Below are positions 34,596-39,124 of a DNA stretch of 64,000 nt, in pieces. This DNA comes from Branchiibius hedensis. GTDB lineage: Bacteria; Actinomycetota; Actinomycetes; Actinomycetales; Dermatophilaceae. The first letter of the stretch is position 1, and each line of letters begins with the position of its first letter. The notes beneath the pieces were generated by a model. The model searched no databases, was not told the origin of the DNA, and saw only the letters and a program-made list of their open reading frames with translations. Where the stretch lies: the NCBI RefSeq assembly GCF_900108585.1, contig NZ_UESZ01000001.1:744001-808000 (forward strand). The letters run 5' to 3'. The translations under genes and the position numbers were made by a program.

Positions 34596-34682
34596 AACTG
34601 CAAATGCTAGATCGGATCAGATATAGATGTTGGACTTCGGAGTGCTCGCGCCCGCAGAGTGGAGACGCGAAAGGAGAACGAG

Positions 34683-35179
34683 ATGACAACCTCCAGTAAC
34701 ACCGTCGGCGTCAAGACAGTCGACGTACCAATCCGGCTCGACATCGATTCCATGGCGCCGCAGTTCTCGCGGGCCTTGAGCGGCCTCGATAAGGCAGCGG
34801 GCCGCGAAGCCGATGCAGCGGGAATTCCCACGGGCCTGCGGGAACTGATCCGGTTGCGGGCATCGCAGATCAACGGTTGCGCTACTGCGTGGATCAGCAC
34901 ACGAGAGCTGCCGACGCGGCCGGCGAGAGTACAACGCGGATTGCGGCCACCGCGGTGTGGCGGGAGTCGGGGTTGTTCACCGCCACTGAACGCGCCGCCT
35001 TGTCGCTCACCGAGTCGATCACCACCGTCGCACAGACCCACGTTCCCGACGAAGCGTGGCGCGAGGCCGCGGTCGTCCTCACCGCCAGCGAGTTGAGCGC
35101 CGTCATCGCTCTCGCGGTCACGATCAACGCCTGGAACGCGGTCGGGGCGTCGACCCGCGCCTGGCCGGTCGAACCGTAA
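34683..35179 (+). pseudogene. AhpD/carboxymuconolactone decarboxylase-like gene broken by a one-base deletion
   Basis: Two overlapping frames together encode a complete protein of about 165 residues. The first reads MTTSSNTVG… LIRLRASQINGCA. The second continues YCVDQHTRAADAAGESTTRI and ends WPVEP. The join falls at 34881–34883, where GCTAC replaces the expected GCNTAC, so one base is missing inside the CxxC (C-A-Y-C) redox motif. AhpD-like proteins use that motif as the peroxidase-linked thiol pair. A good Shine–Dalgarno (AAAGGAGAACGAG) precedes ATG 34683. Reading after the break looks fully coding, so the lesion is recent or a sequencing error. Confidence 0.85.
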
Positions 35180-35772: not shown

Positions 35773-36033
35773 GTGGCAAACATCAAGTCCCAGCTCAAGC
35801 GGATCAAGACCAACCAGGTCCGCACGGAGCGCAACAAGGCCTACAAGTCCGAGTTGCGCACCTGGATCCGCAAGACCCGCGAAGCGGTCGAGGCCGGCAA
35901 CAAGGACGAGGCGCAGCAGTCGCTGGCCCTCGCGTCCAAGAAGCTGGACAAGGCCGTCTCCAAGGGCGTGATCCACAAGAACCAGGCCGCGAACAAGAAG
36001 TCCGCGCTGGCCAAGCAGGTCAACGCGCTCTGA
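35773..36033 (+). CDS. rpsT: 30S ribosomal protein S20
   Basis: An 86-residue basic protein of the small ribosomal subunit. The sequence [15 protein letters not shown], the helical middle and [22 protein letters not shown] are unmistakable. GTG 35773 is chosen over the upstream ATG 35740 because AAGGAA lies six bases before it and S20 proteins begin with ANIKSQ. A strong intrinsic terminator follows 13 bp downstream. Confidence 0.96.
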
Positions 36034-36045
36034 TCGCGCATCCGC

Positions 36046-36080
36046 AAAGCCGCCGCTCCTGCTTCGGGACGGCGGCTTTT
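36046..36080 (+). terminator. Intrinsic terminator after rpsT
   Basis: AAAGCCGCCG (36046–36055) pairs perfectly with CGGCGGCTTT (36070–36079) across a 14-base loop, and the right arm ends in a run of four T. The outer bases CGC and GCG can extend the stem with one bulge. It separates rpsT from the leuS leader. Confidence 0.85.
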
Positions 36081-36097
36081 GCGTTGCCCTCGTGCGA

Positions 36098-36103
36098 TAA
36101 CCT
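36098..36103 (+). promoter_or_regulatory. Putative -10 of the leuS leader transcript
   Basis: TAACCT fits TANNNT and lies six bases before the ATG of the 14-residue leader peptide at 36110. The transcript would begin at or beside that ATG. The -35 region overlaps the right arm of the rpsT terminator and is weak. Confidence 0.5.
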
Positions 36104-36109
36104 GGGTGC

Positions 36110-36154
36110 ATGCAGCGCGTGCTTGGCCTTAGCACGCCGCGGCGGTCACGCTGA
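36110..36154 (+). CDS. Probable leader peptide of the leuS attenuator
   Basis: A 14-codon frame encoding MQRVLGLSTPRRSR. Two of its codons are CTT, a leucine codon that is rare in this window, and they bracket one glycine (CTT GGC CTT). The ATG lies six bases after a TANNNT box, so the mRNA is probably leaderless and translated at once. The codons fall in the loop of a hairpin (GCGTGCT 36117–36123 with AGCACGC 36131–36137). An 8-bp stem (36135–36142 with 36166–36173) and then a terminator follow before leuS. This is the layout of ribosome-stalling attenuation sensing leucyl-tRNA. Coding status is inferred. Confidence 0.55.
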   Translation: MQRVLGLSTPRRSR

Positions 36155-36173
36155 GTGAGCAGACCCCGCGGCG

Positions 36174-36200
36174 AACCCCTCGATGCCCGAGGGGTTTTTT
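36174..36200 (+). terminator. leuS leader: Intrinsic terminator in the leuS leader (attenuator)
   Basis: AACCCCTCG (36174–36182) pairs perfectly with CGAGGGGTT (36188–36196) across a five-base loop, followed by TTTT. It lies 38 bp before the leuS ATG, so it would stop transcription before the gene unless prevented. It directly abuts the 8-bp stem CGCCGCGG/CCGCGGCG whose left arm a ribosome stalled on the CTT codons would cover. Confidence 0.8.
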
Positions 36201-36238: not shown

Positions 36239-39124
36239 ATGACTGAGGTAACCAGCCCGACCGTCGCAAGCGAGACCGGCGACCAGCCGCCGCACCGGTA
36301 CACCGCGGCCCTGGCCGGGCAGATCGAACGCACCTGGCAGGACTTCTGGGACGAGCACGGCACCTTCGAGGCGCCCAACCCGACTGGCCCCTGGGCGGAC
36401 CCCGCTGCGCTCCGCGACCGGCCCAAGTTCATGCTGCAGGACATGTTCCCCTACCCCTCCGGGGCCGGGCTGCACGTCGGGCACCCGCTGGGGTTCATCG
36501 CCACCGACGTCTATGCGCGCTACCAGCGGATGACCGGGCACAACGTGCTCTACATGATGGGCTTCGACGCGTTCGGCCTGCCCGCCGAGCAGTACGCCGT
36601 CCAGACCGGTCAGCACCCCCGCAAGACGACCGAGGACAACATCGGCACCTACAACCGGCAACTGCGGCAGTTGGGCCTGTCGCACGACAAGCGCCGCGCG
36701 TTCGCCACGATCGACCCGGACTACTACCGCTGGACGCAGTGGATCTTCCTGCGCATCTACAACGCGTGGTACGACGAGCGCCTGGGCAAGGCGCGACCGA
36801 TCGAGGACCTGGTGGCCGGGTTGGCCGACGGATCCATCCCCACGCCGACCGGTGCGGCCTGGGGCTCGTTGAGCGATGAGCAGCAGCGGGCGATCATCGA
36901 CGACCGGCGGCTGGCCTACAAGTCCTCCTCGCCGGTGAACTGGGCGCCGGGTCTGGGCACGGTGGTCTCCAACGAGGAGGTCACCAACGAGGGTCTGACC
37001 GAGCGCGGGGACTTCCCGGTCTTCAAGCGCAACCTGCCGCAGTGGATGATGCGGATCACCGCGTACGCCGACCGGCTGATCGACGACCTGGACCACCTGG
37101 ACTGGCCCGAACCGGTCAAAGCGATGCAGCGCAACTGGATCGGCCGTTCCACGGGCGCTTCGATCCGGTTCCCGGTGACCGGTTCGCAGACGCCGATCGA
37201 GGTGTTCACGACGCGTCCGGACACCATCTTCGGGGCCACCTTCATGGTGCTGGCGCCGGAGCATCCGTTGGTGGATGAGATCGTGCCCGACGCCTGGCCG
37301 CAAGGATCGCTACCCGCGTGGACGGGACAGGCGAGTTCGCCCGCGGAGGCGGTGTCGGCGTACCGTCTGGCGGCCTCTCGCAAGTCGGATCTGGAACGGC
37401 AGATCGACGACAAGGCCAAGACCGGTGTCTTCACCGGCGCCTTCGCGACCAACCCGGTCTCGGGCGCGATGGTTCCGGTCTTCATCGCCGACTACGTGCT
37501 GATGGGGTACGGCACCGGCGCGATCATGGCCGTCCCCGCGCAGGACGCCCGTGACTGGGACTACGCCACCGCCTACGACCTGCCGATCATCCGCACGGTG
37601 CAGCCCACCGACGGTCACCCGGAGGACCAGGCGTTCACCGGTGAGGGGCCGGCGATCAATTCCGCCAACGAGCGAATCTCGTTGAACGGCATGGGAATTG
37701 CTCAGGCCAAGGCCGCGATCATCGACTACCTGCAGGCGGAGGGGATCGGCGAGGGGACTGTCACCTACAAGCTGCGTGACTGGCTGTTCAGCCGGCAGCG
37801 CTACTGGGGCGAGCCGTTCCCGATCGTCTACGACGAGGACGGTGTCGCGCACGCGTTGCCGGAGTCGATGCTGCCGGTGGAACTGCCGGAGGTCGCGGAC
37901 TACTCGCCGAAGACCTACGACCCGCTGGACGCCGACTCCGAGCCGGAGTCGCCGCTGTCGCGCGCCACGGACTGGGTCGAGGTCGAGCTGGATCTGGGCG
38001 ATGGTGTGAAGAAGTACCGCCGCGAGACCAACACGATGCCCAACTGGGCCGGATCCTGTTGGTACGAGATCCGATACACCGATCCGGCCAACCACGACCG
38101 GTTCGTCGACCGGGGCTGCGAGGAGTACTGGATGGGCCCGGGCCGGGGCACCGGTCTGGGCGTCGCAGGTGACCCCGGCGGCGTGGACCTGTACGTCGGT
38201 GGGGTCGAGCACGCCGTACTGCACCTGCTGTACTCCCGGTTCTGGCAGAAGGTCCTTTTCGACCTGGGGGAGGTCAGCGCCAGCGAGCCGTTCCGCCGGT
38301 TGATCAACCAGGGTTACGTGCAGGCGTATCACTACCGCGACGCCCGCGGTCAGGTCGTGCCCGCAGCCGAGGTGGTGGAGCAGGCCGACGGCAGCTACAC
38401 CTGGAACGACCAGCCGGTGACCCGCGAGTACGGGAAGATGGGCAAGTCGCTGAAGAACGTCGTCACGCCCGATGAGATGTGCGAGCAGTACGGCGCGGAC
38501 ACGTTCCGCGTCTATGAGATGTCGATGGGACCGCTGGAGATGTCCCGGCCGTGGGAGACCCGGGCGGTCGTCGGCGCGCAGCGTTTCCTGCAGCGGCTGT
38601 GGCGCAACGCGGTCGATGAGCACAGCGGCCAGGTCCGCGTCGTCGACCAGGCGCCCTCGGCCGACCTCGAGCGGTTGCTGCACAAGACCATCGACGGGGT
38701 GCGCGCCGACTACGGCAACCTGCACTTCAACACCGCCATCGCGAAGCTGATCGAGCTGAACAACGCTGTCACCAAAGAGGATTCGCCGTCCAGAGAGGTG
38801 GTTGAAGCGCTGGTGCTGATGACGGCCCCCGTGGCGCCGCACGTCGCCGAGGAACTGTGGCAGCGGCTTGGTCACGGGGATTCGCTGGCGCATGCCGCGT
38901 TCCCGCAGGCCGACCCTGCCCTGCTGGTCGAGGACACCGTCACCTGCGTCGTGCAGATCGCCGGGAAGGTCCGCGACCGGTTGGAGGTGGCGCCGGATGT
39001 GAGTGAGGCGGACCTGCAGGCTCTGGCGTTGTCCAGCGCGAAGGTGCAGGCAGCGATTGACGGTAAGACGGTGCGCAAGGTGATTGTGCGCGCACCGAAA
39101 CTGGTCAACATCGTCGCGAACTGA
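36239..39124 (+). CDS. leuS: Leucyl-tRNA synthetase
   Basis: A 961-residue class I synthetase charging tRNA-Leu. The HIGH-type motif is [15 protein letters not shown] near residue 80, and the KMSKS motif is [12 protein letters not shown] near residue 728. The editing (CP1) domain lies between them, with [21 protein letters not shown] and [16 protein letters not shown], the site that hydrolyses mischarged tRNA. An anticodon-binding helical domain and C-terminal extension complete the protein. The ATG follows AGAGAGCAGCAG, a weak ribosome-binding site. The upstream leader suggests control by leucine supply. Confidence 0.97.

Follow-up and report, generated by a model that had tools for sequence, protein, structure and literature searches.

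A leaderless leader before leuS in Branchiibius hedensis: a predicted leucine attenuator of a conserved actinobacterial family with fixed codon and stem spacings

What is encoded between rpsT and leuS in Branchiibius hedensis, and could it match synthesis of leucyl-tRNA synthetase to the supply of charged leucine tRNA? The window analyzed here is a stretch of 64,000 nt (contig NZ_UESZ01000001.1, positions 744,001 to 808,000 of the forward strand). A first-pass annotation of it had described a leaderless 14-codon peptide with the codons CTT GGC CTT, the CTT codons lying in the loop of a 7-bp hairpin, followed by an 8-bp stem and a U-tailed terminator ahead of leuS. All of these parts are present where it had placed them (Table 1), CTT GGC CTT holding both CTT codons of the leader open reading frame (ORF). 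CTT is also as rare as had been claimed, making up 3.5% of the leucine codons (51/1476) in the window's long ORFs, from which, rather than from the whole genome, codon usage was taken; CTG accounts for 58% and CTC for 21%. With this usage as background, two CTT codons among 13 have a probability of about 8e-4. Folding of the 129 nt that begin with the leader ORF and end at leuS gave a z of -3.3, which none of 200 shuffles equaled. Hairpin 1 and the middle stem overlap by CGC (36135-36137), and the linker between middle stem and terminator is 0 nt.

Table 1. Elements of the leuS leader and its surroundings in the B. hedensis window
Feature	Position	Strand	Basis
rpsT (ribosomal protein S20), upstream gene	35773..36033	+	sequence/ORF
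rpsT own terminator (GCAAAGCCGCCG...CGGCGGCTTTTGC)	36044..36082	+	sequence; terminator-scan site 36059-36075 inside
Predicted -10 element TAACCT, 6 nt ahead of leader start codon	36098..36103	+	TANNNT spacing in relatives
Leaderless (predicted) 14-codon leader ORF, MQRVLGLSTPRRSR and stop	36110..36154	+	ATG 36110, TGA 36152-36154; aligned with 22 relatives
First CTT (Leu) codon of leader	36122..36124	+	sequence
Second CTT (Leu) codon, position-locked sensor codon	36128..36130	+	5 nt before conserved stem start 36136
Hairpin 1, 7 bp GCGTGCT/AGCACGC, CTT codons in loop	36117-36123/36131-36137	+	weakly conserved in family
Middle stem (2:3), 8 bp CGCCGCGG/CCGCGGCG, candidate antiterminator	36135-36142/36166-36173	+	covariation, cross-pairing
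Intrinsic terminator AACCCCTCG/CGAGGGGTT	36174-36182/36188-36196, U tract 36195-36200 (element 36174..36200)	+	directly abuts middle stem
leuS, leucyl-tRNA synthetase	36239..39124	+	ATG 36239; same direction as leader

The predicted terminator of rpsT separates leuS from rpsT transcription; it was found by a terminator scan that missed the terminator of leuS. A generic promoter scan under a strict E. coli rule gave no sigma-70 site. TANNNT occurs at 69 sites in both strands of the window (128 kb), 11 of which have ATG or GTG 5-8 nt downstream, and the leuS leader is the only one of these 11 that then carries an ORF of 7-25 codons. No TANNNT was seen by eye between the terminator and the leuS ATG. 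The 6-nt spacing from the -10 element, together with the mapped transcripts of S. lividans (PMC8079986), suggests that the leader is translated from the first nucleotides of its transcript. Farther upstream, a carboxymuconolactone decarboxylase/AhpD-like frame at 34659-35179 is apparently broken into two ORFs, one at 34659-35096 and one at 34877-35179, the likely cause being either a frameshift or an error of sequencing.

The leader recurs among relatives. LeuS homologs are encoded in 58/58 related genomes, and the DNA upstream of the 30 closest leuS loci among those listed, one of them the window's own, was read after minus-strand loci had been turned. In 23 of the 30, the same unit precedes leuS: TANNNT, a leaderless [A/G]TG ORF, a run of leucine codons, 5 nt, GCCGCG..., its covarying complement and a U-tailed terminator. 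The run ends in CTT, at a locked position, in 22 of these 23 leaders. The outcome that the first-pass annotation had named as refuting its reading, a peptide or CTT codons without counterparts in relatives, was looked for in these loci and did not occur. A stop codon stands ahead of the stem in 6/23 and the GCCGCG sequence is still kept, indicating that it is conserved as RNA and not as peptide. The other 7/30 of these nearest leuS loci lack the unit, and leuS therefore does not need it. A covariance model (R1) built from the window and its relatives matches 115/297 genomes of the order (E <= 0.01) and 183/395 genomes of the class (E <= 0.001), with 62.7 bits for the window itself. A pattern scan of named genomes found hosts in Streptomyces, Amycolatopsis, Saccharomonospora, Actinophytocola, Jiangella, Nakamurella, Blastococcus, Nocardioides, Georgenia, Ornithinimicrobium, Intrasporangium and others, and a few presumably chance matches outside the class (Kluyvera, Methanosaeta, Salipiger). 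The leuS start was located downstream of 117 leaders, mostly 35-90 nt past the terminator. No family of the Rfam release searched corresponds to the window's leuS leader; the window gave no match at gathering score and none that was relevant at a relaxed threshold, and no T-box covariance model matched it at either setting. A motif, (C)ATG(T/C)CCGG or GTGCCCGG, recurs just 3′ of the U tract in many leuS leaders (L031-L188).

The middle stem and the terminator both vary as base-paired RNA. The two-helix structure shows 100 two-sided changes against 24.6 in shuffles, a count that retains 2 reverse-strand partial matches among the 102 model matches of set A3 (these two are excluded from the counts over 163 leaders given below). 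Two-sided changes occur in 7 of the 9 pairs of the middle stem, and cognate arms pair far better than swapped ones, with z of -21.5 for the middle stem and -25.1 for the terminator. The amino-acid attenuation proposed in the first-pass annotation is supported by this covariation and by the conservation of the leader among leuS loci. Hairpin 1 is another matter, its conservation being weak (22/500 in the leuS-anchored subset; cross-pairing z -2.9); as a conserved anti-antiterminator it was rejected (-8.17 versus -7.95 +/- 0.13 kcal/mol). A pseudoknot between the loop and the sequence past the terminator, convincing by eye in several loci, gave no signal either (loop:post z -0.2).

The spacings of the element are nearly invariant. 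Among 163 non-redundant leaders, a set derived with a model that already favors CTT and this spacing, the last leucine codon is CTT in 153, CTC in 8 and CTG in 2; the 23 leuS-anchored loci alone are free of this bias. From the end of TANNNT to the start codon the distance is 6 nt in 122/163 leaders and 7 nt in 33 more (155/163 together). The conserved stem begins 5 nt after the last leucine codon, so when the A site (+4 to +6) holds that codon, the first base of the stem is at +12. A stem at that distance lies at the mouth of the mRNA tunnel of a bacterial ribosome and remains folded there (PMC8861025). The earlier proposal that a ribosome stalled on CTT would cover the left arm of the middle stem is thus probably wrong, with the stem starting at +12 from the P-site codon. 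The stop codon mostly stands at one of two places, at +15, within the 5′ arm, in 110 of the 163 leaders and at +6, just before the arm, in 36; in the window it comes later, at +24. A ribosome that finishes at +15 or +6 would therefore sit on the 5′ arm of the stem, and the fixed codon and stop spacings imply that "waiting on leucine" means a folded stem and "finished" an opened one.

The identity of the last codon may also be informative. Standard wobble rules assign CTC and CTT to tRNA-Leu(GAG), and the genome has a gene for this tRNA besides leucine tRNAs with the anticodons CAG, CAA and TAG. The codon bias suggests that, in much of the class, a single isoacceptor, tRNA-Leu(GAG), is what the leuS leader senses.

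Our preferred reading, to which we give a probability of roughly 0.7, is transcription attenuation of leuS by a leaderless leader peptide; the element would respond to charged tRNA-Leu(GAG) through a stem that hinders the abutting terminator. Transcription would start at 36110, the leader ATG. When Leu-tRNA is sufficient, the ribosome would clear both CTT codons, reach the stop codon and open the outer middle stem; the terminator could then form freely, and transcription would end before leuS. With Leu-tRNA scarce, the ribosome would wait with CTT in its A site while the middle stem stayed folded at the mRNA entrance. The folded stem ends where the terminator begins and would make it harder for the terminator hairpin to close fully while transcription pauses briefly at the U tract, a helix at the terminator base impeding its last base pairs within RNA polymerase, and the polymerase would read through into leuS. 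The direction of the switch comes from physiology: the gene of a synthetase is expected to rise when its charged tRNA is scarce, and for this reason the folded stem must counteract the terminator.

That direction bears on the opposite assignment, in which the middle stem aids termination, for instance as a hairpin that makes RNA polymerase pause, and any effect of stalled ribosomes comes about in another way. The tight spatial coupling of stem and terminator would suit it. However, a ribosome on the last leucine codon leaves the stem intact and one on the stop codon opens it, so a stem that aided termination would shut leuS down just when leucine is short, the opposite of what a synthetase gene needs; we consider this arrangement very improbable. 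The first-pass annotation had found no definite antiterminator pairing. The middle stem itself, adjacent to the terminator and with no strand clearly common to both, is most likely the antiterminator, a candidate role that draws on physiology and on analogy with tested systems.

How, then, could a stem that leaves the terminator its strands counteract it? In a classical trp-type switch, the 5′ arm of the terminator would lose bases to a longer antiterminator. Antiterminator and terminator hairpins have been drawn for Streptomyces leuS (Seliverstov et al., 2005; PMC1262725), and the two hairpins of C. glutamicum ilvBNC do have GCC in common (PMC11857589). Folding of the window also allows G36173 to pair with either C36135 of the middle stem or, through a weak G-U pair, U36197 of the terminator. 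Yet the cross-pairing scan detected no covariation of the terminator 5′ arm with upstream segments (six:T5 z +3.6, R2:T5 z -0.5, loop:T5 z +3.8), the first of these values being also that for a middle stem extended into the terminator arm, which was rejected. A middle stem followed by the terminator after 0-2 nt without overlap is the rule (148/163 leaders). When a ribosome was masked at five positions in folds of the window, the terminator kept a probability of 0.98-0.99. Since the terminator forms in every simulated ribosome state, equilibrium strand exclusion is not the switch, which must be kinetic or steric; a trp-type exchange is accordingly unlikely. Ribosome stalling, the antagonism between stem and terminator and its steric or kinetic nature are what we infer.

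Control might instead be mainly translational, with the run of leucine codons paired to the leuS 5′ UTR past the terminator, a stalled ribosome freeing that 5′ UTR and the terminator acting as a secondary layer. Over a diverse set of 77 leaders, pairing of the leader codons with the stretch from 18 to 40 nt upstream of the leuS start was stronger than pairing with swapped partners (z -7.2), while controls with the promoter region and with leuS codons gave z of about 0. The complementarity is long and striking in L123, L045, L041 and L016, and the LEU element of leuA offers a precedent, its leucine codons pairing with the Shine-Dalgarno box (PMC1262725). Still, the signal excludes the ribosome-binding site (-20..+2, z +2.7), it is individually significant in only 13/77 leaders with the window at chance (p = 0.5), and such control would make the strong terminator superfluous. 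As the main mechanism this is improbable, but in some lineages leader pairing with the leuS 5′ UTR may supply a further level of control, on translation, of the kind seen in the LEU element of leuA. L131 and L063 also have long complementarity between the leader and the leuS 5′ UTR just past the terminator.

Attenuation through an abutting stem, as preferred here for leuS, may extend to related pathways. Weak matches of the model pointed to leaders ahead of cimA, which encodes citramalate synthase of the isoleucine pathway; these leaders carry ATT/ATC codons and a GCGCG stem that the terminator abuts. One of them (L209) lies in the window's own genome (G000:C1, about 629,250-629,400), with ATT ATC, a TAG stop, a GCGCGTCGGA/TCCGACGCGC stem and an abutting terminator, before a cimA gene that scores 633.8 bits with TIGR00977. 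Comparable leaders were aligned from 14 loci of other genomes (A4), each ahead of a cimA-like gene; cimA in these sister loci was named from its conserved N-terminus. This architecture suggests that the cimA leader is an isoleucine version of the leuS attenuator. No published mention of it was found in open-access text. In the cimA leaders, GCCGGG follows the U tract and resembles the motif at that place in leuS leaders. Parts of the leuS-leader design also occur in a leader before a probable acetolactate synthase gene (ilvB; L193) and in leuA leaders (L199, L202 and L204). L193 reads GTG GCC CGA ATT CTC GTA CTT CCC TAG, then a GC-rich stem and a terminator; its sensor codons are mostly rare and A/T-ending.

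Overall, the comparisons support a predicted leucine attenuator that is real and conserved as an element; its kind is known, but its structural rules are new. A prediction for two Streptomyces species becomes a class-wide element with a precise geometric rule, testable by one-nucleotide changes of spacing. New are the last leucine codon, CTT or CTC in 161/163 of the model-derived leaders, with the stem at the mRNA entrance of the ribosome (+12); the stem that abuts the terminator with no clearly common strand; and the same architecture with ATT/ATC before cimA, in the window's genome too. A broader generalization is tentative and rather doubtful: for their genes of branched-chain amino acids (leuS with CTC/CTT, cimA with ATT/ATC, perhaps ilvB), actinobacteria may use a distinct type of attenuator, in which a fixed last sensor codon would place the stem at the mRNA entrance of the stalled ribosome and the stem would sterically block the abutting terminator in the exit channel of RNA polymerase without any exchange of strands, and to which pairing of leader codons with the leuS 5′ UTR would add a second layer in many lineages.

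Among the closest known systems is that of Streptomyces. Classical attenuators were predicted before leuS of S. avermitilis and S. coelicolor (Seliverstov et al., 2005; PMC1262725), and RNA-seq of S. lividans TK24 revealed a leaderless peptide, LeuL2 (MRAVRLLLSEPR), followed by a hairpin and a U stretch before leuS (PMC8079986). The model R1 retrieves a leader (L162) that encodes the LeuL2 peptide unchanged. Judged by sequence, the window's leader is a new member of this family, with which it shares a leaderless peptide with leucine codons before leuS, a hairpin and a U-tailed terminator. It differs in its CTT GGC CTT and later stop codon, where LeuL2 has three adjacent leucine codons, and its middle stem has an extra inner helix (GGUC/GACC) relative to the LeuL2 type.

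The LEU element of leuA is similar in its run of leucine codons ending CTT AGC and its CCGCG stem (L199, L202 and L204). However, it is a pseudoknot with no obvious terminator (PMC1262725), whereas the window has a terminator and shows leader pairing with the 5′ UTR at chance level (p 0.5). Leader mutants of ilvB and leuA in S. coelicolor, as cited in that paper, did not behave as those of classical attenuators. With the E. coli trp type, the leuS leader has in common a leader peptide and a ribosome position that is read as termination or read-through; it differs in its leaderless start and in that no strand common to middle stem and terminator was found. The closest tested case for the proposed mechanism is the "fast" attenuator of C. 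glutamicum ilvBNC, which has adjacent antiterminator and terminator hairpins and the control codons CUU and GUA and was confirmed by mutation (PMC11857589). There too, translation starts one nucleotide from the transcript start, CUU is among the control codons and the hairpins are adjacent at their bases (PMC11857589), although gene and amino-acid set differ; the ilvBNC hairpins overlap by GCC, while those of leuS abut (0 nt) and could share only G36173, through its weak G-U pair.
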